Source: Streptomyces sp. 11x1
GTDB taxonomy: Bacteria > Actinomycetota > Actinomycetes > Streptomycetales > Streptomycetaceae
NCBI RefSeq assembly: GCF_032598905.1
Contig: NZ_CP122458.1
Coordinates: forward strand, 806,001-870,000
Length of the DNA: 64,000 bases
Direction: 5' to 3'
The notes beneath the pieces are model-generated. The model searched no databases. It saw only the letters and a list, made by a program, of their open reading frames with translations, and was not told the origin of the DNA. A program made the position numbers and the translations under genes. Shown here in pieces: positions 7,774-19,294 of the stretch (positions within the stretch are counted from its first letter, which is position 1; each line of letters opens with the position of its first letter).

Positions 7774-8799
7774 TCAGGTCTGCCGCAGCGGCTCGTACAC
7801 CTCGGGTCGCAGGCCGAACGTCCAGGCCACGCCCTCCCGGGCCGTGGTCGTGGTGGGCGGCACCCGCAGCCAGTAGGTGCGGCTGGTGCCGTCCGGCTCC
7901 GGTGTGGAGTTGACGACCTCCACCATCACCACGTCCTCGTCGCCCGGCAGGGCTATCCGCCAGAGCACGCCCGTCTCGTCGCGGTGCACCGGCTTCGCCC
8001 CGGACTCCTCCAGGTAGCGGTCGTAGCCGTAGTACTCCAGCATCACGCGGCGCAGCTCGGCGTTCTCCTCCGCCCGGATCTCCTGCGGGGTCAACCCGCC
8101 CAACCGGTCGAGGAATTCAGCCGGCACGGGCAGTCCGCGCCAGGCGTGCAGGGCGAACCCGTCGGAGAAGGCGAGCGCGGGCCCGTCCCCGCGGTCCAGG
8201 CGGCCCGCCTCGTCCCGGTGCAGTTCCACAGGCCGTTCGGCGACGACGGCGACATGCTCGTACGGCCACCACCATCCGGCCGTGCGGGCCACCTCGGCGA
8301 GTCCGTCCAGCTCGGGAGCGGCGTCGAAGGCGGCCAGCCAGGCCGCGTCGTGCTGGCCCAGGACCGCGTCCAGGAGCAGCAGCCGGACACCCGTTTCCTG
8401 CTTGCGGTCGGCGGAGGCCAGGGCCTCGACGATTCCGGTGCGGACGCGGTCGACGAGGGGCCGGGTGGTCTCCCAGAGGTCGGCGCCGGACGCCCGCCAG
8501 TGGTCGCCCCAGCCGGTGGGGCCCAGCCGGGTGTGCAGCCGGGCGCGGGCGGCGGCGACCGGTCGGTCGCGGACGGCGTCACGGACGCTCGCCCCGGTCG
8601 CCGGGAGCGCCTCGCCGTCCTCCGCGGCCGCTCCCGAGAGCAGGCGCAGCGCCGCCAGGGGCGAGCGGGCCCACACGATCCGCTCGGGCTCCGCCAGCCC
8701 CGCCCGCCGGTACGCCAGACGCACGCCCGCCTCGGTGCGCGTCCGGTCGCCCGCCCCGGTGGCCGCCGCGACCGCCCGCCAACTCGCCTGTTCCGTCAC
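7774..8799 (-). CDS. DUF6745-type protein, unknown function
   Basis: Predicted 341 aa from GTG 8799, which has a strong AGGAGG site; extending the frame upstream would run into poorly conserved sequence. The C-terminal third (YYGYDRYLEESGAK, then EVVNSTPEPDGTSRTYWLRV and a TAREGVAWTFGL-type ending) matches what I recall as DUF6745. The N-terminal two thirds are an alpha-rich region with many Trp and Arg residues. There is no signal peptide and no recognisable catalytic motif. It lies 73 bases downstream of a small partner gene (8873-9199) on the same strand, and the pair is probably an operon. Function unknown; a role in recognition or toxin-like processes would be speculation. Confidence 0.75.
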   Translation of the reverse strand: MTEQASWRAVAAATGAGDRTRTEAGVRLAYRRAGLAEPERIVWARSPLAALRLLSGAAAEDGEALPATGASVRDAVRDRPVAAARARLHTRLGPTGWGDHWRASGADLWETTRPLVDRVRTGIVEALASADRKQETGVRLLLLDAVLGQHDAAWLAAFDAAPELDGLAEVARTAGWWWPYEHVAVVAERPVELHRDEAGRLDRGDGPALAFSDGFALHAWRGLPVPAEFLDRLGGLTPQEIRAEENAELRRVMLEYYGYDRYLEESGAKPVHRDETGVLWRIALPGDEDVVMVEVVNSTPEPDGTSRTYWLRVPPTTTTAREGVAWTFGLRPEVYEPLRQT

Positions 8800-8872
8800 G
8801 CCGTTCCTCCTGGATGTCGATGCCTGTACACACGGCCGCCGCACATCACGGCCGCCCTCTCTTCCCACGGAT

Positions 8873-9199
8873 TCAGTCGGCGACGATCCGCACCGACCCC
8901 GGTACGTACTCGCGTTGGCGGATCACGCGGTACCAGCCCTTGGGCAGGGAGATCGCCGCGTGCTCCTCGTGGACGACGCGGGCGCCCTCCGGCACATGCA
9001 GCAGCATCGGCCCGAAGACGCTCGCCTCGCGGATCAGACGGCCGGGACCGACCACGGCGTGCGCGTGACCGGTGACCTCGCCGAGGGCGAGGACGAGCCG
9101 GCCGCGCCCGTCGCGCGGCTCCGACGTGGCATCGAGCGCACTTCCGGGCACCGCGCTCTCCGCCAACGGCACGATGAGGACGTCTCCTTGCCGGTACAT
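8873..9199 (-). CDS. Small conserved protein paired with DUF6745, unknown function
   Basis: Predicted 108 aa, starting MYRQGDVLIVPL at ATG 9199 with a GGGAGG site. The predicted fold is mostly beta strand: GEVTGHAHAVVGPG, a strand with MLLHVPEGARVVHEEHAAI, and PKGWYRVIRQREYVPGSVRIV. HAHAVV and HEEH put several His and Glu residues near each other, as in a small metal-binding beta barrel, but this is only inference. It precedes the DUF6745 gene and is divergent from the STM4015-type operon (259-base gap). Confidence 0.75.
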   Translation of the reverse strand: MYRQGDVLIVPLAESAVPGSALDATSEPRDGRGRLVLALGEVTGHAHAVVGPGRLIREASVFGPMLLHVPEGARVVHEEHAAISLPKGWYRVIRQREYVPGSVRIVAD

Positions 9200-9458: not shown

Positions 9459-10427
9459 ATGACCATCGGGAGCCATCTTGAGGAGTTCCACGACCTGCCG
9501 GTCCACCGCTTCCCCAAGTCGGTGAAGGACCGGCCGGGCGCCGCCGGTCTACCCGCGCCCGAGTCGGTGGCCTGGAACATCACCGTGGACTCGTACGACA
9601 CCGAGGAGGGCTGGGAGGAGGCGTTCGGCCGGTTCCTGGCCTCGGTCGACACCGAGAAGGTGCGGGCGCTGGTGGTGGGCGCCTGGAACGAGGTCTACGA
9701 CAACGGCCCCGAGAAGATCGTCCAGGCCCTGGTGGCGGCGAAGGACCGGCTGCCCTCGCTGCGCGCGCTGTTCCTCGGGGACATCGTGATGGAGGAGTGC
9801 GAGATCTCCTGGATCAACCAGGGGAACGTGGGCCCGCTTCTGGAAGCCTTCCCGGAACTGGAGGAGTTCGGGGTGCGCGGCGGCCAGGGACTCGTCTTCC
9901 CGCCGTTGCGGCACGAGCGGCTGCGCTCGCTGACGGTGGAGACCGGCGGCATGCCCGCCGAGGCCGTCCGGGGTGTCGCGGGCAGCGACCTGCCGGCCCT
10001 CGTCGAGCTGGACCTGTGGCTCGGCACCTCCGAGTACGGCGGCGACAGCGAGGTGGCCGACCTGGCGCCGATCCTCGCGGGCACCCGGCTCCCCGCCCTC
10101 AAGTATCTGGGGCTGCGCAACAGCGAGATGCAGGACGACATCTGCGCGGCCCTGGCCGCCGCCCCGGTGGTGGCCCGCCTCGACGTGCTGGACCTGTCGA
10201 TGGGCGTCCTCACCGACGACGGCGCGACCGCGCTCCTGACCGGTCAGCCGCTCACCCACCTCAAGACGCTGGACCTGCACCACAACTACCTCAGCGCGGA
10301 GATACGCGACCGCCTGCGGGACTCCCTGGAGGCCGAGGGGGTCCAGGTCGACGTCGACGCCGACGACGCCGAGTCGGACGAGGAGGAGGACGGCACGGTG
10401 TGGCGGTTCGTCGCGGTGGGCGAGTGA
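9459..10427 (+). CDS. STM4015-family leucine-rich-repeat protein
   Basis: Predicted 322 aa. The start MTIGSHLEEFHDLPVHRFP is characteristic of the STM4015 family and favours ATG 9459 over the in-frame ATG 9429. From about residue 100 on, ribonuclease-inhibitor-like leucine-rich repeats are visible (LPALVELDLWLG, LPALKYLGLRNSEMQDD, LTHLKTLDLHHNYLS). The C-terminus is very acidic (DADDAESDEEEDG). No enzymatic motif or export signal is present, so it is likely a cytoplasmic protein-interaction scaffold. It is the first gene of a six-gene operon (STM4015-4014-4013-4012-4011 plus thioesterase), 33 bases before the next gene. Biochemical role unknown. Confidence 0.88.
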   Translation: MTIGSHLEEFHDLPVHRFPKSVKDRPGAAGLPAPESVAWNITVDSYDTEEGWEEAFGRFLASVDTEKVRALVVGAWNEVYDNGPEKIVQALVAAKDRLPSLRALFLGDIVMEECEISWINQGNVGPLLEAFPELEEFGVRGGQGLVFPPLRHERLRSLTVETGGMPAEAVRGVAGSDLPALVELDLWLGTSEYGGDSEVADLAPILAGTRLPALKYLGLRNSEMQDDICAALAAAPVVARLDVLDLSMGVLTDDGATALLTGQPLTHLKTLDLHHNYLSAEIRDRLRDSLEAEGVQVDVDADDAESDEEEDGTVWRFVAVGE

Positions 10428-10460
10428 GCGCGTAGGGATCCGCGGACGAAGGGGGGCCAA

Positions 10461-11636
10461 GTGTCCGGTTGGAGCGGTGCGGCGGGGGTGGGACCCGGCC
10501 CGTACAGGTGGGTGGTCGTCGGGAACGGGGAGAACCGGCGGGTCGGGCTGTTCGTCGCGGCGGCCGAGACGGCCGGCGCCGGGAGACCCCGCGTCGTCGA
10601 GTGGCGGGACGTGCTGCGCGACGGCGGCCACGAGTTCGCCGACGACGAGATCGTCCGGCTGGAGTCGCCGGGTGAGAACGCCGAGGTGGACCGGCTGTTG
10701 CGCGATGTCGGGGACCCGACACGGGTGGAGGGCTCAGCCACCTGGTACGCCCGTTTCCTGGCCGCCGTGGGCTCACTGCGGGGCGGGCTGCGGCTGGACG
10801 GTCCGGCGGATCTGGCGGTGCTGTTCGACAAGCGGCTGTGCCACGCCCGGCTCGACGCGGCCGGGGTCCCGGTGCCGCCGTCGCCGACCTCGGGCCGCAC
10901 GCTCGCGGTGGGCGGCTGGGACGACGTGCGGGCGGTGATGCGGGAGCACGGCATGCCGCGCGTCTTCGTGAAACCGGCCCACGGCTCCTCCGCGTCCGGT
11001 GTGCTGGCCGTCGAGTCGTCGGCGAGCGGACGGCTGCGGGCCACCACCTCGGTGGAGGTGTCCGCGGACGGCGGGCCGCACACCCCGCCGCGGCTGCACA
11101 ACTCCCTGCGGGTGCGGCGCTACGCGGACGAGCGGGAGATCGCCGGCATCGTCGACGCCCTCGCGGCCGACGGGCTGCACATCGAGCGGTGGCTGCCAAA
11201 GGCATCCGCGCAGGGGCGGTCCGCCGATCTGCGGGTGCTGGTCGTGGCGGGCCGGGCCACGCACGCGGTCGTCCGCACCAGCCGATTCCCGATGACGAAC
11301 CTCCATCTCGGCGGGGCACGGGGCGATCTGACCTCGGTCGTGGACGCGGCCGGCGACCGCTGGCGGCAGGCGCTGGACATCTGCGAGCAGGCCGCCGCCT
11401 GCTTCCCGGACACGCTGTGCGTCGGCGTGGACCTGCTCCCGGCGATCGGCTGGCGCCGGTTCACGGTGGGCGAGGTCAACGCGTTCGGCGATCTGCTGCC
11501 CCGGCTGACCGGACTCCCGGGCGGCCCGGCGGAGGGCCTCGACACGTACACGGCACAACTCGCGGCGGTGCGGAACGCGATGCTCCCGGCGCCCGCGCAC
11601 CTCCCCCAGGCAAGGAAAGACCATGCACGCTTCTGA
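10461..11636 (+). CDS. STM4014-family protein, ATP-grasp-like
   Basis: Predicted 391 aa from GTG 10461. The middle and C-terminal part carries ATP-grasp features: FDKRLCHARLDAAGVPVP, then VFVKPAHGSSASGV (ATP-binding Lys and glycine-rich loop), ADLRVLVVAGRATHAVVRTS and GVDLLP...FTVGEVNAFGD with the acidic Mg-binding and Asn residues. This resembles RimK/glutathione-synthetase ligases that join a carboxylate to an amine or thiol with ATP. The substrate is unknown. The gene overlaps the following hydrolase gene by 14 bases, which indicates translational coupling. The ATP-grasp assignment is my reading of motifs; the family itself is uncharacterised. Confidence 0.85.
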   Translation: MSGWSGAAGVGPGPYRWVVVGNGENRRVGLFVAAAETAGAGRPRVVEWRDVLRDGGHEFADDEIVRLESPGENAEVDRLLRDVGDPTRVEGSATWYARFLAAVGSLRGGLRLDGPADLAVLFDKRLCHARLDAAGVPVPPSPTSGRTLAVGGWDDVRAVMREHGMPRVFVKPAHGSSASGVLAVESSASGRLRATTSVEVSADGGPHTPPRLHNSLRVRRYADEREIAGIVDALAADGLHIERWLPKASAQGRSADLRVLVVAGRATHAVVRTSRFPMTNLHLGGARGDLTSVVDAAGDRWRQALDICEQAAACFPDTLCVGVDLLPAIGWRRFTVGEVNAFGDLLPRLTGLPGGPAEGLDTYTAQLAAVRNAMLPAPAHLPQARKDHARF

Positions 11637-12474
11637 CCCGGCCGGCACCACCACGGCCGAGCCGGACATGAACGAGGTGGTGGGCCGCGACGACCTGCTG
11701 CTGCTCACTCTCGACACCCTGCGCCACGACGTGGCCGTGAAGCTCGCGGCGGAGGGCCGGCTACCGAATCTGGCCGCCCGTCTGCCGGGCGGCACCTGGG
11801 AGAAACGGCACGCGCCCGGCAGTTTCACGTACGCCTCGCACCAGGCGATGTTCGCGGGGTTCCTGCCCACCCCGGCGAGGCCCGGACCGCATCCGCGGCT
11901 CTTCGCGGGCCGGTTCGCCGGCAGCGAGACCACCGAGGAGCGCACCTTCGTGTTCGACGGTCCCGACCTGGTCTCGGGGCTCGCCGAGCGCGGCTACCGC
12001 ACGGTGTGTGTGGGCGGTGTCGGCTTCTTCAACAAGCAGGGGGCGCTCGGCAGTGTCCTGCCGGACCTGTTCCAGGAGAGCCACTGGGAGCCGGAGTTCT
12101 CCGTGGCCTCACCCACGTCGTTCGAGTCCCAGGTGGCCCGCGCCGAACAGGTCGTGGCCGAACTCCCCGCCGACCGGCGGCTGTTCCTCTTCCTCAACGT
12201 CTCCGCGCTGCACCAGCCCAACTGGTTCCATCTGCCGGGCGCCACCCGCGAGGCGGGCGACAGCCTCGCCACGCACGCGGCGGCCCTGGAGTACGTCGAC
12301 CGGCACATCGGCCGGCTCTTCGCCGCGATGAGTTCACGGCGCCGCTGCTTCGCCATCGTCTGCTCCGACCACGGGACCACCTACGGCGAGGACGGGTACA
12401 CCGGACACCGCCTCGGCCACGAGGCCGTGTGGACCGTCCCCTACAGCCACTTCTTCCTGGAGCCGTCCGCATGA
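11623..12474 (+). CDS. STM4013/SEN3800-family hydrolase (alkaline phosphatase superfamily)
   Basis: Predicted 283 aa. Metal-binding landmarks of the alkaline-phosphatase/sulfatase superfamily are present: LLLLTLDTLRHD (first Asp), SFTYASHQAMFAGFLP (candidate Ser/Thr nucleophile region), ALHQPNWFHLPG, and VCSDHGTTYGEDGYTGHRLG with the second-site Asp-His plus another His. There is no sulfatase C/S-x-P-x-R formylglycine motif, so a phosphatase, phosphodiesterase or phosphotransferase is more likely than a sulfatase. It is short for the superfamily and has no signal peptide, hence cytoplasmic. ATG 11623 overlaps the preceding gene and its stop overlaps the next start (ATGA). Confidence 0.88.
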   Translation: MHASDPAGTTTAEPDMNEVVGRDDLLLLTLDTLRHDVAVKLAAEGRLPNLAARLPGGTWEKRHAPGSFTYASHQAMFAGFLPTPARPGPHPRLFAGRFAGSETTEERTFVFDGPDLVSGLAERGYRTVCVGGVGFFNKQGALGSVLPDLFQESHWEPEFSVASPTSFESQVARAEQVVAELPADRRLFLFLNVSALHQPNWFHLPGATREAGDSLATHAAALEYVDRHIGRLFAAMSSRRRCFAIVCSDHGTTYGEDGYTGHRLGHEAVWTVPYSHFFLEPSA

Positions 12475-13811
12475 CCGTGACCGCGCCGCTGGTCCGTCCT
12501 TACCAGCACTACGTCTACGCCTACCCGCACAAGACGGCATACCGGAAACTGCCCGACGATCCGCTGCTCGCGGACCTGTGGGCCGGCGAGTCCCGGCAGG
12601 CACTGTCGCTGTACGCGCACATACCGTTCTGCGAGGTGCGCTGCGGCTTCTGCAACCTCTTCACGCGGATCGGCGCTCCCGACGGGCTGACCGGCCGCTA
12701 TCTCGACGCCCTCGAACGGCAGGCGATCGCGGTGCGGGAGGCGCTCGGGGACGCGGAGCCGGTGCGGTTCGCGAACGCCGCGTTCGGCGGTGGCACCCCG
12801 ACCTATCTGGAGGCCGCGGAGTTGGAGCGGCTGTGCGACATCGCCGAGCAGCACATGGGCGCGGACCTGCGGGCGATCCCGCTGTCGGTGGAGGCCTCCC
12901 CGGCCACGGCGACCGCCGACCGGCTCTCGGTGCTCGCCGAGCGGGGCACCACACGGCTGAGCCTCGGCGTGCAGAGCTTCGTACCGGAGGAGGCGCGTGC
13001 GGCCGTACGACCGCAGCGGCGGTCCGACGTGGAGGCGGCCCTGTCCCGGATCCGGGACGCCGCGATACCGATCCTCAACATCGACCTGATCTACGGCATC
13101 GACGGGCAGACGGCGGCCAGTTGGCGGCTGTCGCTGGACGCGGCCCTCGCCTGGCGGCCGGAGGAGATCTACCTCTATCCGCTGTACGTCCGGCCGCTCA
13201 CCGGGCTCGGCCGGAACGCGGACCCGGTGCTCGCGGACCGCGACTGGGACGAGGCCCGGCTGCGGCGCTACCGCGAGGGCCGCGACCATCTGCTCGCCCA
13301 CGGCTACGAGCAGGTCTCCATGCGGATGTTCCGTCGCGCGGACGCTCCGCCGCAGGGCCCGGACGACCACGCCTGCCAGACGGACGGCATGATCGGCCTG
13401 GGCTGCGGAGCCCGTTCGTACACGTCGCAGGTGCACTACTCCTTCGACTACGCGGTGCACATGAGCGAGATCCGCACGATCATCGACGACTACACCGCCA
13501 CCGAGGACTTCGGCCGGGCCGTGCACGGTCGGGTGGTCGACGAGGACGAGGCCCGGCGTCGCCATCTGCTGCAGTCCCTGCTCCAGGCGCGAGGACTGCC
13601 GGTGGCGGACTACCGGCGGCGGTTCGGGTCGGAGCCGTACGCGGACTTCCCCGTGGAGCTGGACCTGCTGGCCGCGCGCGGCTGGCTCGCGGAGACGGGC
13701 CCCGGTCTGCTGAAGCTCTCCGCCGAGGGGCTGGCGCACTCGGACGCCATCGGCCCCGAGTTCTTCTCCCCCGCCGTCCGGGCGGCGATGGCCGCGTACG
13801 AGCCGAAGTGA
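12471..13811 (+). CDS. STM4012-family radical SAM protein (HemN/HemW-like)
   Basis: Predicted 446 aa. The [4Fe-4S]-binding CxxxCxxC is in YAHIPFCEVRCGFCN (about residues 45-59). FGGGTPTYL and VEASPATAT are SAM-contacting motifs of the coproporphyrinogen-oxidase-like radical SAM group; GVQSFVPEEARAAV and LNIDLIYGIDGQT also fit, and a HemN C-terminal domain follows. The family resembles heme chaperone HemW and coproporphyrinogen dehydrogenase, but members in this operon type form a distinct clade (STM4012). The start ATG overlaps the preceding stop by 4 bases; its own stop overlaps the next GTG by 4. Confidence 0.92.
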   Translation: MTVTAPLVRPYQHYVYAYPHKTAYRKLPDDPLLADLWAGESRQALSLYAHIPFCEVRCGFCNLFTRIGAPDGLTGRYLDALERQAIAVREALGDAEPVRFANAAFGGGTPTYLEAAELERLCDIAEQHMGADLRAIPLSVEASPATATADRLSVLAERGTTRLSLGVQSFVPEEARAAVRPQRRSDVEAALSRIRDAAIPILNIDLIYGIDGQTAASWRLSLDAALAWRPEEIYLYPLYVRPLTGLGRNADPVLADRDWDEARLRRYREGRDHLLAHGYEQVSMRMFRRADAPPQGPDDHACQTDGMIGLGCGARSYTSQVHYSFDYAVHMSEIRTIIDDYTATEDFGRAVHGRVVDEDEARRRHLLQSLLQARGLPVADYRRRFGSEPYADFPVELDLLAARGWLAETGPGLLKLSAEGLAHSDAIGPEFFSPAVRAAMAAYEPK

Positions 13812-14698
13812 CGACACCCGTGGACCTGACGATCCTCTACCGGGGCCCGCTCGCCTCCTGCGACTACGACTGCCCCTACTGCCCGTTCGCCAAGCGGCGT
13901 GACTCGACGGACCGGCTGCGGGCCGACCGCGCGGCCCTGGAGCGTTTCACCGCCTGGGCCCGGGAACAGACCGGCGACCGGCTCTCGGTGCTGTTCACAC
14001 CGTGGGGCGAGGGGCTGGTGCGGTCCTGGTACCGCAGGGCCCTGGTCGAGCTCTCCCACGAGCCGCACATCGACCGGGTGGCGATCCAGACGAACCTGAG
14101 CTGCCGCACGGAATGGCTGACGGAGGCCGACCCGGACACGGTGGCCCTGTGGTGCACCTACCACCCCGGACAGACACCGTACGAGAGGTTCCTCGGCAAG
14201 GCCCTCCGGCTGGCCGGGGCGGGGATCCGCTTCAGCGTGGGGATCGTCGGCCTGCCGGAGCATCTGGAGCACGCCAGGCGGTTGCGCGGGGAGCTGCCGG
14301 AGCAGGTGTATCTGTGGGTGAACGCCGCCGAGGGACACACCTACACCGACGAGGAGGCGGCGCTCTGGACCGAGTTGGACCCCCTGTTCCCGTTCAGCCG
14401 CCACCCGCACCGCTCGGCGGGCCGCGCCTGCCGCACCGGTTCCACGGTGGTGTCGGTGGACGGGGAGGGGACGGTCCGGCGCTGCCACTTCGTGAAGACC
14501 GAGCTGGGCAATCTCTACGACGGCTCCTTCCGCGCCGCGTTGGCGCCCCGCCCCTGCCCGTTGTCCGTCTGCGACTGCCACATCGGCTACGTCCACCTCG
14601 AAACGCTCCCCCTGTACGACGTGTTCGCGGGCGGCGTCCTGGAGCGCGTACCGACGCCGGCGGCGCGGCCCGGAGTCCGAAAGCGAGTGAGCCCATGA
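13808..14698 (+). CDS. STM4011-family radical SAM protein
   Basis: Predicted 296 aa from GTG 13808, which overlaps the previous TGA (GTGA). The radical SAM cluster motif is in SCDYDCPYCPF (CxxxCxxC, residues 17-24). The C-terminal region has additional cysteines (RACRTG, VRRCHF, PLSVCDCHIGY) arranged like a twitch/SPASM-type auxiliary cluster domain, as in enzymes that modify peptides or proteins. The two radical SAM enzymes are encoded side by side and translationally coupled, suggesting they act on the same substrate. The substrate and reaction are unknown. Confidence 0.9.
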   Translation: MTTPVDLTILYRGPLASCDYDCPYCPFAKRRDSTDRLRADRAALERFTAWAREQTGDRLSVLFTPWGEGLVRSWYRRALVELSHEPHIDRVAIQTNLSCRTEWLTEADPDTVALWCTYHPGQTPYERFLGKALRLAGAGIRFSVGIVGLPEHLEHARRLRGELPEQVYLWVNAAEGHTYTDEEAALWTELDPLFPFSRHPHRSAGRACRTGSTVVSVDGEGTVRRCHFVKTELGNLYDGSFRAALAPRPCPLSVCDCHIGYVHLETLPLYDVFAGGVLERVPTPAARPGVRKRVSP

Positions 14699-15444
14699 CC
14701 TCAGCGGTCAACAGTGGTCCGTGGCTGCGGCGTTACCGGCCCGCGCCCGAGGCGGCCGTACGGCTGCTGTGTCTGCCGCACGCGGGTGGCTCGGCGAGCG
14801 CCTACCACCCCATGGCGCTGGCGCTCGCCCCGGCGGCCGATGTGCTGGCCGCGCAGTACCCGGGGCGTCAGGACCGCTACGCCGAGCCGCCGTCGGAGAG
14901 TGTCCGGGAGCTGGCCGAGCGGATCGTCGAGGCCGTCACCGGCGACGACGACCGGCCGCTCGCCCTCTTCGGGCACAGCATGGGTGCGGTGGTCGCCCAC
15001 GAGGCGGCGCTGGCCCTGGAGGCGGCCGGCCGGGTCCCGGTGCGACTGTTCGTCTCTGGGCGGCGCGCACCCTCCGTACGTCGGCCGGGTCGCGCGCTGC
15101 ACCTCGGCAGCGACGCCGAACTGCTCCGGGCGGTGCGCCGGTTGGGCGGCACCGACGGGCAGGTCTTCGAGGACGAGGAGCTGGTGCGGCTGGTGCTGCC
15201 CGCGCTGCGCGGCGACCACAAGGCGCTGGAGACGTACGAGCCGCGCCCCGGCGACCGGCTGTCCTGCCCGGTCACCGTCCTCACCGGCGACGCCGACCCG
15301 GTGACTCCGGTGGCGGACGCGCGGGCCTGGAGCGGCCACACCGACGGACCGACCGAGCTGTGTGTGTTCCCCGGCGGCCACTTCTACCTCAACGACCGGC
15401 CGCGGGAGGTCGTCGACGTCGTACGCCGCCATCTGGGGCTGTAG
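14695..15444 (+). CDS. Type II thioesterase (alpha/beta hydrolase)
   Basis: Predicted 249 aa. It starts at ATG 14695, overlapping the STM4011 stop by 4 bases. The type II thioesterase signature LCLPHAGGSASAYHP is at residues 25-39. The nucleophile elbow FGHSMGAVV has Ser95, the acid is near TGDADPVTP (about 200), and the catalytic His is in FPGGHFYLND (about 227). QYPGRQDRYAEPP is the lid-region motif. Such enzymes normally remove aberrant acyl groups from carrier proteins of polyketide or nonribosomal peptide synthases, or release products. No PKS, NRPS or carrier protein is encoded in the window, so its coupling to the STM4011-4015 set is notable. Confidence 0.92.
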   Translation: MTSAVNSGPWLRRYRPAPEAAVRLLCLPHAGGSASAYHPMALALAPAADVLAAQYPGRQDRYAEPPSESVRELAERIVEAVTGDDDRPLALFGHSMGAVVAHEAALALEAAGRVPVRLFVSGRRAPSVRRPGRALHLGSDAELLRAVRRLGGTDGQVFEDEELVRLVLPALRGDHKALETYEPRPGDRLSCPVTVLTGDADPVTPVADARAWSGHTDGPTELCVFPGGHFYLNDRPREVVDVVRRHLGL

Positions 15445-15467: not shown

Positions 15468-16190
15468 TCACACCCGCCAGCTGTAGCGCCGTTCCGGGCG
15501 TCCGGCCACGCCGTAGCGCAGGGAGACGTCCGCGCTGCCGGTGCCGTGGAAGTACTCCAGGTAGCGGCGGGCGCTGACCCGGGAGATGCCGGTGAGGGTG
15601 GCGCACTCGGTGGCGGAGAGGGTGCCGTCGGCGGCGCGCAGGGTGGCCTCGATCAGCTCGGCGGTCTCCACGCTCATGCCCTTGGGCAGGGCACCGGCCG
15701 TCGACGCCGGCACGGTGGCTCCGGCGAGGACCCGGTCGACGTCGGCCTGGCCCCGGACGACGGTGGTGAGCAGCCGGCCGCGCTGGGCGGCGTACCGCTG
15801 GAGCCGGGAGCGCAGCTCTTCGAACTCGAAGGGCTTGAGGAGGTAGTCGACGACGCCGTGGCGGACCGCGCCGCGCACGCTGTCGGCCTCCCGGGCGGCG
15901 CTGATGACCATGACGTCGCAGTCGTGTCCGGCGGTGCGCAGCCGGGGTATGACGTCGAGGCCGAAGCCGTCGGGGAGGTAGAGGTCGAGGAGGACCAGGT
16001 CGGGGCGGAGTTCGTCGACGGCGGCGACGGCCTGTTCGCCGGTGCTGGCGACGCCGACCACGTGGAACGGCTCGACGCGTTCGACGAAGGTGCGGTGGAC
16101 CCGGGCCACCATGAAGTCGTCGTCGACCACGAGCACGTCGATGGTGCCGGGCGGGCTGCTCGTACCGGACGGTCTGCTCGTGCCGGTCAT
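15468..16190 (-). CDS. CitB/DcuR-type response regulator
   Basis: Predicted 240 aa. The receiver domain (residues 17-135) has the acidic pocket VVDDDF, phospho-acceptor Asp69 in LVLLDLYLPDG, and Lys in LLKPFEF. The C-terminus is a winged or HTH region of the CitB type, including ATLTGISRVSARRYLEYF. It is translationally coupled (ATGA) to the upstream sensor kinase gene and is convergent with the thioesterase gene. Regulators of this group activate uptake or metabolism of citrate, C4-dicarboxylates or tricarboxylates; the divergent Tct transporter at 18305-21337 is the obvious target. Confidence 0.9.
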   Translation of the reverse strand: MTGTSRPSGTSSPPGTIDVLVVDDDFMVARVHRTFVERVEPFHVVGVASTGEQAVAAVDELRPDLVLLDLYLPDGFGLDVIPRLRTAGHDCDVMVISAAREADSVRGAVRHGVVDYLLKPFEFEELRSRLQRYAAQRGRLLTTVVRGQADVDRVLAGATVPASTAGALPKGMSVETAELIEATLRAADGTLSATECATLTGISRVSARRYLEYFHGTGSADVSLRYGVAGRPERRYSWRV

Positions 16191-17863
16191 GGTGTCGCTC
16201 CTTCCGCCACCGCGTCGGCGAGGTGGCTGACGGTCATGCGGGCGGTGAACATGGCCCCGTCGGGGGTGTTGGTCACCGAGACCTCACCGCCGTGTCGTTC
16301 GCAGACCAGGCGGGTGAGGGCCAGGCCGATACCGCGTTCGCCTTCCCGCGCGGCCTTGGTGGTGAAACCGTGGGAGAAGACCTCACGGGCGAGTTCGGGG
16401 GCCACCCCGGGGCCCGAGTCGCGGACGACGATCTCCACGCTGGAGGCGTCCTGGCGCAGTTCCACCTCGACCCAGGCCTCGCGCGCGTGGGCGCCGGCCC
16501 AGCGGTCGGGGTCGTCGGGCGCGGTAGGAGTGGCGGCCGCGTCCACGGCGTTGTCGACGAGGTTGCCGACGACGGTCGCCACGTCGGCGGCGTCCTCGGG
16601 GGCCAGCCGGTCGAGGTTGGTGGCGTCCGAGATCCGCAGGGTGACCCGGCGTTCGGCGGCCAGCGAGGTCTTCGCCGTGAGCAGGGCGGCGACGGCGGTG
16701 TCGCGGACGCGGCGGCTGAGGGTGACGTCGAGGGAGTGGCGGTGCCGGCTCAGCGCCCGGATGTAGTGCACGACCTCGTCCTGCTCGCCGATCTGGATGA
16801 GCCCGGAGATGGTGTGCAGTTGGTTGGCGAACTCGTGGGCCTGGGCGCGCAGCAGCTCGGAGGAGCTGCGGAAGGAGCCGATCTCGCGTTCGAGGCGGGC
16901 CAGCTCGGTGCGGTCCCGGAGCGTGGTGACGGAGCCGAGGTGGCGGCCGTCCTTGGTGACGGTCATCCGGTTCATCACCAGGACCCGGCCCCGGCGGATC
17001 ACGACCTCGTCGCGCTGGTGGGGTGCCTCCGCCTGGGCCCCGGCCAGGACGTCCCGCAGCCGTCCCTCCACCCCGAGGTCGGCGAGGCTCTTGCCGACGC
17101 AGTCCTCCGGCAGGTCCAGCAGGCGCCGGCCCATCTCGTTGACGAGGGTGAGCCGGTGGTGGGGGTCGAGGGCGATCACGCCCTCGGCGATGCCGTAGAG
17201 CATGGCCTCGCGGTGTTCGGCGAGGCCGGCGATCTCCTGCGGCTCCAGGCCGAGGGTCTGCCGTTTGACGCGGCGGGCGAGCAGCCAGGAGCCGACGAGG
17301 CCGAGGCCGCTGGCGATGCCGAGGTAGGCGAGGAGGTAGGAGGAGGCGCCGCTGAGACGCTGCCACACGGTCGGGGAAGCCTCGCCGATCATGACCGTGC
17401 CCAGCAGCAGGCCGAGGTTGTCGTTGGTCGTCGCGCCGAGCACGGGGACCTGGGCCACGAGCTCGCGGCTGCCGTCCAGGGTCAGTGAGCCGGACCAGCC
17501 GCGGCCCGCGAGGGCGCCCTCGCCCACCGGCAGCGGGTCGCCGATCGCGGTGGGGTCGGTGGAGCTGACGATCCGGCCGTCGGCGTCGGCGACGGTGACC
17601 GAGGTGACCCCGGACTGGGTCTGGGTGGAGTTCACCAGGGGCGCCAGCGCCTCGTGCGCGACGGGCCGTGCGAGGCGGTCGCGGACCAGCGGGTTGGCGG
17701 CGAGCTGCTCGGCGAGCGCGGTGACCCGGCGGCCCTCGACCCGGTTGAAGGTCGCCGCCGACTGCGTGAGCGAGACCGCCGCGACCGCCAGCAGCACCAC
17801 CACGACGATGGCGAGCTGGAGGACCAGCATCTCGCCTGCGAGGGTATGGCGACGGAACACCAC
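16187..17863 (-). CDS. CitA/DcuS-type sensor histidine kinase
   Basis: Predicted 558 aa from GTG 17863. TM1 (about residues 12-34) and TM2 (about 173-197) flank a ~140-residue extracytoplasmic PAS-like sensor domain. A cytoplasmic PAS follows (AMLYGIAEGVIALDPHHRL), then the CitA/DcuS-type H-box RAQAHEFANQLHTI (His near 345), N-box NLVDNAVDAA and G-boxes DSGPGV and GIGLALTRLV. Such kinases sense citrate or C4-dicarboxylates outside the cell. It forms an operon with the response regulator and is divergent from the TctCBA transporter. The intergenic region contains the tandem repeat at 17902-18046. Confidence 0.92.
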   Translation of the reverse strand: MVFRRHTLAGEMLVLQLAIVVVVLLAVAAVSLTQSAATFNRVEGRRVTALAEQLAANPLVRDRLARPVAHEALAPLVNSTQTQSGVTSVTVADADGRIVSSTDPTAIGDPLPVGEGALAGRGWSGSLTLDGSRELVAQVPVLGATTNDNLGLLLGTVMIGEASPTVWQRLSGASSYLLAYLGIASGLGLVGSWLLARRVKRQTLGLEPQEIAGLAEHREAMLYGIAEGVIALDPHHRLTLVNEMGRRLLDLPEDCVGKSLADLGVEGRLRDVLAGAQAEAPHQRDEVVIRRGRVLVMNRMTVTKDGRHLGSVTTLRDRTELARLEREIGSFRSSSELLRAQAHEFANQLHTISGLIQIGEQDEVVHYIRALSRHRHSLDVTLSRRVRDTAVAALLTAKTSLAAERRVTLRISDATNLDRLAPEDAADVATVVGNLVDNAVDAAATPTAPDDPDRWAGAHAREAWVEVELRQDASSVEIVVRDSGPGVAPELAREVFSHGFTTKAAREGERGIGLALTRLVCERHGGEVSVTNTPDGAMFTARMTVSHLADAVAEGATP

Positions 17864-17901
17864 GACGGACTCTTCTCTCTGCCGACGCCGTCCCGGGCGC
17901 C

Positions 17902-18046
17902 GCTCCTGATCTGTACCGGACGCCGCGCGGGGCGTCTGACTCCTGTTCGTGCCGGACGCCGAGTCGGGCGTCCAGCTCCTGTCTGTACCGGAAGCCGAGT
18001 CGGGCGTCCCGCTCCTGTCTGCGTCGACGCCACGTCCGGCGTTTCA
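17902..18046. repeat. Tandem ~36-bp repeat array in divergent promoter region
   Basis: Four degenerate head-to-tail units of about 35-38 bases start near 17902, 17940, 17975 and 18011. Each has the order CTCCTGTCTGTACCGG, GACGCC, GAGTC, GGGCGTC. GACGCC and GGCGTC form a short palindrome inside each unit. A weaker fifth copy may occupy 18047-18079. The 441-base gap between kinase and TctC genes contains nothing else recognisable as a gene. Confidence 0.7.
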
Positions 18047-18304
18047 CTCTTCCCGGTCCGGCACCACGCCGGGCGGTCCGCGGCTCGGGTGCCGCCCTGT
18101 GCGGTGGGTCGCACAATCATGGCGCCCGGGTGCGATCCGGGAAAGGGAGGTGCGGGGGACGTGCCCATAAGGTGACAGGGGCCGTGACCACTACGACCAC
18201 AACCTTCGTTGCTTCCGCAAGGGCGTCAGGGCCCTCCCACGCGGGCACGATGTGGCCCAGGTCACCTCCCCCCTCATCGACCCGACCGACAGGTGGTGGC
18301 ATTC

Positions 18305-19294
18305 GTGCAACTGCGCACCCCGCTCGCCCTGCTCGGGGCGGCCGTGCTCGTGCTCGTGGGACCGCCGCTGCTGTCCACCGGCGACGACACCGGCACCGGC
18401 TCCGGCACCCAGATCCCCGGCCTGCGCTTCATGGTGCCGAACACACCGGGCGGCGGCTACGACATCACGGCACGGACGGCCGCGAAGAACGCGGAGGACG
18501 CCGGGCTCACCCACAACATCGAGGTGTTCAACCTGCCGGGTGCCGGTGGCACGGTCGGCCTGAGCCGGCTGGTGAGCGAGCACGGCAACGGCCGGCTCGC
18601 GATGTCGATGGGGCTCGGTGTCGTCGGCGCCGTCCGCTCCAACGACGCGCCGAAGACCCTCGCCGACACCACCCCGATCGCCCGCCTCACCGAGGAACAG
18701 GACGTCGTGGTGGTGGCCAAGGACTCCCCGTACAAGACGATCGACGACCTCGTCGGGGCCTGGAAGGACGACCCGGGCAAACTGCCGGTGGGCGGCGGTT
18801 CGGCACCGGGCGGCCCCGACCACCTGGCGCCGATGCTGATGGCACAGGCCGCCGGGATCGCGCCGAAGGACGTCAACTACATCCCCTTCGACGGCGGCGG
18901 TGAGCTGCTCGCCTCGATCCTGGGCGACAAGGTCGCCTTCGGCGTGTCCGGAGTCGGTGAGTACCTGGACCAGATCAAGGCGGGCGAGCTGCGGCTGCTC
19001 GCGGTGACCGGCCCCGAACGCGTGCGCGGGCTGGACGCGCCGACCCTCCAGGAGGCCGGCTACGACGTGAACTTCACCAACTGGCGCGGCATCGTCGCCC
19101 CGCCCGGCCTCACCGACGCCGAGCGCGACAAGCTCACCCGGCTGATCGAGGAGTTGCACGATTCGCCGGAGTGGCGGCAGTCCCTGAAACAGAACGGCTG
19201 GGACGACGCGTTCCTCACCGGCGACGCGTTCGGCGACTTCCTGGACGCCCAGGACAGGCGCGTGGTGTCGGTGCTGAAGGAGCTGGGACTGTGA
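18305..19294 (+). CDS. Tripartite tricarboxylate transporter substrate-binding protein (TctC family)
   Basis: Predicted 329 aa from GTG 18305, chosen because AGGTGG is 8 bases upstream; GTG 18293 and 18296 are in-frame alternatives. An N-terminal hydrophobic segment (TPLALLGAAVLVLVGPPLL) is an export signal or anchor; no lipobox Cys follows. The family fold is clear: FMVPNTPGGGYDITART, NLPGAGGTVGLSRL, MSMGLGVVGAV, and KLPVGGGSAPGGPDHLAP, with GVSGVGEYLDQI near residue 215. It binds a carboxylate outside the membrane and delivers it to TctA/TctB. The stop overlaps the TctB start (GTGA). Confidence 0.92.
   Translation: MQLRTPLALLGAAVLVLVGPPLLSTGDDTGTGSGTQIPGLRFMVPNTPGGGYDITARTAAKNAEDAGLTHNIEVFNLPGAGGTVGLSRLVSEHGNGRLAMSMGLGVVGAVRSNDAPKTLADTTPIARLTEEQDVVVVAKDSPYKTIDDLVGAWKDDPGKLPVGGGSAPGGPDHLAPMLMAQAAGIAPKDVNYIPFDGGGELLASILGDKVAFGVSGVGEYLDQIKAGELRLLAVTGPERVRGLDAPTLQEAGYDVNFTNWRGIVAPPGLTDAERDKLTRLIEELHDSPEWRQSLKQNGWDDAFLTGDAFGDFLDAQDRRVVSVLKELGL

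Follow-up and report, generated by a model that had tools for sequence, protein, structure and literature searches.

A conserved STM4015-STM4011 operon of Streptomyces sp. 11x1 and a candidate carrier role for the terminal glutamate of its leucine-rich-repeat protein

RimK, the ribosomal protein S6 glutamate ligase, acts on the C-terminal Glu of a protein. In amino-group carrier protein (AmCP) systems, LysX attaches its substrate, through the amino group, to the C-terminal Glu of LysW at the gamma-carboxyl (PMC10433800). In PMC9303977, AmCPs are compared with the pearlin scaffolds (TglA and TmoA, used with a peptide aminoacyl-tRNA ligase, PEARL), where amide-tethered building takes place on the C-terminus of a protein, once with radical S-adenosylmethionine (SAM) chemistry (TmoD). 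Here, we describe an operon in a 64,000-nucleotide stretch of DNA from Streptomyces sp. 11x1 (NZ_CP122458.1, positions 806,001 to 870,000; hereafter the window, to which all positions refer). Its five genes, STM4015-STM4014-STM4013-STM4012-STM4011, encode a leucine-rich-repeat (LRR) protein, an ATP-grasp ligase, an alkaline-phosphatase-superfamily hydrolase and two radical SAM enzymes, and belong to families so far named after Salmonella locus tags only. If the reading below is correct, this would be the first case known to us in which LysX-type loading is coupled to radical SAM chemistry.

By analogy with the AmCP systems, we propose that STM4015 may be an LRR carrier that is loaded by STM4014 on its last Glu, with the radical SAM enzymes and the hydrolase modifying the cargo; we give this proposal slightly less than an even chance. 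In this scheme, a small substrate with an amine group would be attached to the C-terminal Glu of the folded STM4015; STM4014 would use ATP to activate the Glu carboxylate and then join the substrate to it, in the way that LysX serves LysW. STM4012, STM4011 and STM4013 would then alter the tethered cargo, and some hydrolase would free the product. We infer the loading, the carboxylate used, the cargo and the order of the steps, and cargo modification is read from the set of enzymes. The question is narrowed to one residue and one enzyme, namely STM4014 acting on the last Glu of STM4015. If the proposal is true, roughly one in two of the Streptomyces species sampled (190/392) and many paenibacilli would contain a new carrier pathway with an undiscovered product. 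The more general idea, a widespread undescribed form of protein-tethered biosynthesis with LRR carriers (often WGR-LRR proteins in the Bacteroides-type), an AmCP-type ligase acting on Glu and radical SAM enzymes acting on the cargo, is more tentative.

STM4015 (9459..10427, + strand; 322 aa) scored 406 bits against NF038076 (cut-off 275). Its AlphaFold2 (AF2) model, with a predicted local distance difference test score (pLDDT) of 93.7, clearly shows an LRR fold, and its best match in the PDB is 2ra8; the LRR label given in the initial annotation holds on this model, the Pfam match being weak (E 1.8e-4, below the cut-off). An acidic, indel-rich linker (residues 299-314; 10353..10400), where single alignment columns have gaps in as many as 37 of 53 rows, is followed by the tail W-R-F-V-A-V-G-E (residues 315-322; 10401..10424), in which Glu322 is the proposed attachment site. 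After the gapped linker, Glu was found at position -1 in 98/98 distinct STM4015 ends. These ends came from 107 open reading frames (ORFs), namely those of loci L002-L110 and the window minus the duplicates L001, L003, L008 and L009; at least one of the 107 (L010) lies away from an operon. Of the same 98 ends, 97 carry Arg at -7, 95 carry Tyr or Phe at -6, and 97 carry Gly, Ser, Thr or Ala at -2. The last residue was variable in all four sister proteins, STM4011 to STM4014.

The best database homologues of STM4015 also end in Glu (120/120). For the Bacteroides-type homologues, which are relatives of the STM4015 of L125 and mostly carry a WGR domain (PF05406), 15 of 120 proteins were excluded as their C-terminal region was not recovered, and terminal Glu was present in 99 of the remaining 105; five of the six exceptions stop within the LRR, and the sixth, P0190, ends in ..YPYIN. 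Tails of this type vary at -7 and -6 (..WYSPMITE, ..GGFPLITE, ..MCPCITE) and keep the terminal T-E. Salmonella STM4015 is without Arg at -7 and Tyr/Phe at -6. Since the Bacteroides-type tails differ among themselves at -7 and -6, only the terminal Glu is common to the tails of all groups. In 2ra8, the last Glu of the profile aligned to residue 354 of the 362-residue chain, the last eight residues of which are probably a purification tag. Tandem STM4015 genes precede STM4014 in L006, L007, L082, L089, L092, L124, L127, L128 and L132, and both copies end in Glu.

The conservation at -7 and -6 would also suit a pathway like those of ribosomally synthesized and post-translationally modified peptides (RiPPs), with the last 7-8 residues of STM4015 as the core: the radical SAM enzymes would act on residues such as Arg(-7)/Tyr(-6), by crosslinking or rearrangement, and STM4014 would form an amide or ester within the tail in the manner of a graspetide ligase. 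The fold matches of STM4014 include the ligase PsnB, and the C-terminal region of STM4011 weakly matches the maturation protein SkfB (E 0.012). Variation at -7/-6 in the Bacteroides-type homologues weakens an Arg-Tyr crosslink as the core function; with both residues missing in Salmonella and only the final Glu shared by all groups, we regard this explanation as unlikely. A conserved small ORF encoding a separate precursor, envisaged in the initial annotation, did not emerge, as none was common to the locus groups. Among 1641 candidate ORFs of 18-110 aa, taken within 700 nt in the 82 complete loci described below, no family recurred across groups except for one chance-like pair, in a search that very short or divergent peptides could escape. 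The C-terminus of STM4015 is a better candidate for a peptide substrate or carrier than a separate precursor ORF.

We compared 76 STM4015 proteins in a tree built from their bodies, tail excluded, for a chosen subset of loci (L122, which has a premature stop, and L151-L154 were left out). All 58 operon-linked STM4015 proteins end in Glu, including two from damaged operons (L125 and L150). Of 12 copies lying away from the operon in genomes or records that have one (in Embleya and S. cadmiisoli, the operon is deduced from STM4012 on the same records), 9 keep Glu; of the 5 copies from genomes without STM4014 (G270, G311, G335, G540 and G595), none does. A single STM4015 of Calothrix, left unassigned as to operon status, keeps Glu. 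The eight copies without Glu form three clades of five, two and one; because of their position in the tree, the absences are read as losses. The clearest case is L112, from the operon-free genome G311, which is without Glu, its four closest relatives (L116-L119), with the operon elsewhere in the genome, having Glu. The off-operon copies that keep the Glu tail are L115-L119, L121 and L129-L131; their pattern would fit the supply of more than one carrier in trans.

STM4014 (10461..11636, + strand; 391 aa, GTG start; NF038074, 443 bits, cut-off 175) is the proposed loading enzyme. Its AF2 model had a pLDDT of 90.3 and a predicted template modelling score (pTM) of 0.89. The nearest solved folds were the ArgX:LysW complex (3vpb), LysX/ArgX with LysW-gamma-AAA (5k2m) and LysX (3vpd), with DcsG, PsnB and RimK ranking behind, and the ATP-grasp label assigned earlier stands. 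A segment of STM4014, D256-G285 (11226..11315, + strand), with R272 and TNLHL, aligned to the LysX stretch D-R..R-x-S-x-x-x-I-T-N in HMMER comparisons with 1uc8/1uc9; D256, R258, R272, P277, T279 and N280 in this segment are invariant. K124, K171, D324 and N340, which we take to be ATP-grasp active-site positions, are invariant as well. Based on the model, we claim that STM4014 belongs to the LysX/ArgX/RimK structural group. RimK was only 1.6 Z units behind ArgX (VIA), a margin at which we claim the group and the exact reaction is not fixed by the fold.

The nearness of RimK bears on a second explanation, that the tail is permanently modified: STM4014 would add one or more amino acids to Glu in the manner of RimK, the radical SAM enzymes would alter them, and the LRR protein itself would be the product, as a cofactor-bearing protein or a sensor, with no release. 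The best structural matches are nevertheless carrier ligases, and for a tail tag, a pair of radical SAM enzymes together with a member of the phosphatase superfamily would be costly; we consider this explanation improbable, though the strongest of the alternatives. The fold is also shared by enzymes that join free small molecules, such as the D-Ala-D-Ala ligases and DcsG. In a third explanation, STM4014 would ligate free small molecules, with the terminal Glu serving as a recognition tag that docks an STM4015 scaffold on STM4014 or on another enzyme of the pathway. LRR domains commonly bind proteins, and in the model of STM4015 the tail is fairly ordered. Docking, however, would not usually call for an exact terminal carboxylate in a fixed register, and carrier ligases are the nearest folds; of the explanations considered, we find this one the least likely.

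Several observations weigh against a carrier loaded on its last Glu. On the side of the ligase, besides the small margin over RimK, STM4014 scored below the cut-offs of the LysX and RimK families (TIGR02144, 18.4 bits against 275.6; TIGR00768, 23.1 bits against 143.4), and for this single sequence the rimK_fam profile scored slightly above LysX_arch. The sequence match to LysX was weak and ranked below unrelated ATP-grasp enzymes: a biotin carboxylase matched better (8.5e-5 vs 3.7e-4), and in a second search an inositol-phosphate kinase did so (0.015 vs 0.055). The GSWGR motif, with which LysX reads EDWGE, is absent from STM4014, in which the stretch aligned nearby is mostly GSSAS or GSGAS. 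On the side of STM4015, the tails contain no EDWGE motif as found in LysW, and the protein has an LRR fold instead. The tail is predicted by AF2 as fairly ordered (block pLDDT 80, 89 and 82; short strands at 306-308 and 314-316), unlike a free arm. Outside the Bacteroides-type and Salmonella proteins, conservation is also strong at R(-7) and Y/F(-6), neither of which a bare hook would need. An invariant last residue is not special to STM4015, as the 108-aa accessory protein described below always ends in Asp (32/32 distinct copies). In the tree, the STM4015 of G553 still ends in Glu though STM4014 is broken, and three off-operon copies in operon-bearing genomes are also without Glu. The operon-free sample is small (n=5), and since its five copies fall in three clades, they do not represent five independent events. 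Finally, the conserved set of genes includes no releasing peptidase.

The enzymes proposed to act on the cargo follow STM4014. STM4013 (STM4013/SEN3800 family; 11623..12474, + strand) scored 427 bits against NF038075 (cut-off 250) and matched PF00884; Pfam supports its placement in the sulfatase/phosphodiesterase superfamily, in agreement with the earlier label, and its relatives in the PDB are arylsulfatase and nucleotide pyrophosphatase/phosphodiesterase. STM4012 (12471..13811, + strand; NF006067, 640 bits, cut-off 380; CX3CX2C at 12630-12653) is a HemN-like radical SAM enzyme, as had been stated, with HemN (1olt) and the methyltransferase NocN (9p2u) as its PDB relatives. STM4011 (13808..14698, + strand; GTG start; NF038073, 417 bits, cut-off 200) carries CX3CX2C (13859-13882) and five conserved C-terminal cysteines (within 14429-14578), features that sustain its assignment as a radical SAM enzyme next to a Pfam radical SAM score of 23.5 bits, below the cut-off. 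Eight of its cysteines are invariant (C18, C22, C25, C208, C226, C250, C255 and C257), and STM4011 probably carries an auxiliary cysteine cluster. A haloacid dehalogenase (HAD) hydrolase recurs at the end of the Salmonella operon, inside the operon of Undibacterium (L083) and near that of Deinococcus taeanensis. Because it joins the operon in Salmonella and Undibacterium, it hints at a phosphorylated intermediate in the pathway. HAD queries from Salmonella and Deinococcus matched the Salmonella locus only among the loci then searched, and missed the HAD gene of L083.

The initial annotation had described a six-gene operon, closely packed and acting in one pathway. All six ORFs were confirmed, as were the membership of five of five proteins in the STM4011-4015 families (each above its curated NCBIfam cut-off) and the overlaps, one of 14 nt between STM4014 and STM4013 and then three of 4 nt; the gap between STM4015 and STM4014 is 33 nt. 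As to one pathway, the statement was supported for five genes, by a fixed order in several phyla and co-occurrence in Streptomyces; the sixth, the thioesterase, was not supported as part of a conserved unit. The order STM4015-4014-4013-4012-4011 is kept in plasmid records of Salmonella, Paenibacillus, Methylobacterium and three Deinococcus. We collected loci by scanning genomes with STM4011 alignment patterns, keeping 80 of at least 458 confirmed loci, mostly from Paenibacillus and Streptomyces; complete loci were recognised with hidden Markov models (HMMs) derived from five seeds. The full set of five genes shares a strand in 82 of the collected loci, which span several phyla and include the window, four plasmid records and loci of Undibacterium, Acaryochloris and a Blastocatellia genome. 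Loci L068 and L072 sit on short contigs. In L094, the operon is rearranged, with the accessory gene pair described below inside it and STM4014-STM4015 inverted.

In 91 genomes of Streptomyces, STM4015 and STM4011 were both above cut-off in 37, that is, in 37 of the 40 with either gene; STM4015 occurred alone in 2, STM4011 alone in 1, and neither in 51 (Fisher p = 6e-22, not corrected for relatedness). One of the 51, G310, holds fragments of both genes. The genome of strain 11x1 (10.67 Mb, two contigs) contains one match for STM4011 and one for STM4015. We further paired STM4014 and STM4015 across 392 genomes of the genus by reading match lists: STM4015 was matched in 199, 190 of which had STM4014 at E <= 2.4e-40, five with strong STM4015 matches had no STM4014 better than 4.6e-6, and four with weak matches were without STM4014. 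These results support the five genes as one conserved unit, plausibly one pathway. Bacteroides finegoldii (L125, 7785-11802) has STM4015, STM4014 and STM4011, with STM4013 and STM4012 reduced to pieces. The operons of L122 (in G310) and L150 (in G553) are decaying, with split frames. STM4012-like genes of Rhizobium were considered as possible operons and rejected, since L013, the locus read, is without the other four genes. There (9477-12261, on a plasmid of Rhizobium tropici), an STM4012-like radical SAM gene and a class I methyltransferase gene have genes for pseudoazurin and cbb3 oxidase as neighbours; annotations show comparable pairs in Cupriavidus and in other Rhizobium.

The type II thioesterase-like alpha/beta hydrolase (14695..15444, + strand; PF00975, 169 bits) is a lineage-specific rider outside the conserved unit. 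The thioesterase matched at E <= 1e-60 in 63 of the 91 genomes and was operon-adjacent at that threshold only in that of strain 11x1 (1/91), in a search that scored up to 30 candidates per genome and could miss a distant match. At the collected loci, in a search that did not extend to the closest relatives of the strain, a thioesterase HMM (>40 bits) found such a gene downstream of STM4011 in the window and in L001, a copy from the same genome, and nowhere else; in L087, a thioesterase gene lies upstream of the operon on the opposite strand.

A linked pair of genes (7774-9199), overlooked in the initial annotation, is divergent from the operon: a DUF6745 gene (7774..8868, - strand; PF20530, 390 bits) and a gene for a 108-aa protein (YRQGDV..GEVTGHAH..HEEH; 8873..9199, - strand; phrog_27831, unknown function). 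Strong DUF6745 matches occurred in 30 of the 91 Streptomyces genomes, each of which belongs to the 37 with the operon; four other genomes gave weak matches (3e-30 to 6e-23), and that of strain 11x1 gave a second DUF6745 match of this kind. The pair also flanks the operon in Deinococcus and Methylobacterium, is linked in L094, and was not found at the Paenibacillus, Salmonella or Bacteroides loci; the 108-aa gene lies next to the operon in actinomycetes too. The 108-aa protein is the sole widely recurring small gene product at the collected loci. The pair is a linked accessory of the operon, and the support for one pathway extends to it. Downstream (15468-19294) lies a response regulator gene with DcuR as its best match, followed by genes that by eye resemble those of a sensor kinase and of a binding protein of the tricarboxylate type; these neighbours are probably unrelated to the operon. 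PADLOC defence models gave two weak, partial matches among eight proteins, neither of them convincing. In the portions of the open full-text literature available to us, no function is given for the names STM4011-STM4015; combinations of LRR, radical SAM, ATP-grasp, carrier or RiPP yielded nothing on this system, and DUF6745, 2RA8 and Q64V53 yielded nothing.

Compared with known systems, the proposed pathway resembles radical SAM RiPPs and graspetides in that radical SAM or ATP-grasp enzymes would act on a peptide region, and differs from them in that a separate precursor was not found and the common residue is a terminal Glu, not an internal core. With the pearlin pathways, it would share building tethered to a C-terminus together with radical SAM enzymes, whereas pearlins are loaded onto a peptide by a tRNA-dependent PEARL, a family absent from the matches of the six operon genes in the family scans run. 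STM4014 is, like RimK, an ATP-grasp ligase, with a near-equal fold match, but forms an NCBIfam family of its own (NF038074) and is partnered by an LRR protein in a radical SAM operon. The AmCPs (LysW with LysX/ArgX; Vzb22 of vazabitide) differ in the carrier, LysW being small and zinc-binding and STM4015 an LRR protein of about 280-360 aa, and in the partners, which are a kinase, a reductase, an aminotransferase and a peptidase for AmCPs, and two radical SAM enzymes and a phosphatase-superfamily hydrolase for STM4015. STM4015 falls outside the LysW family, although the proposed system would work in an AmCP-like way: in both, a folded protein bears an acidic extension with an invariant final Glu, and the partner is an ATP-grasp ligase from the same structural group.

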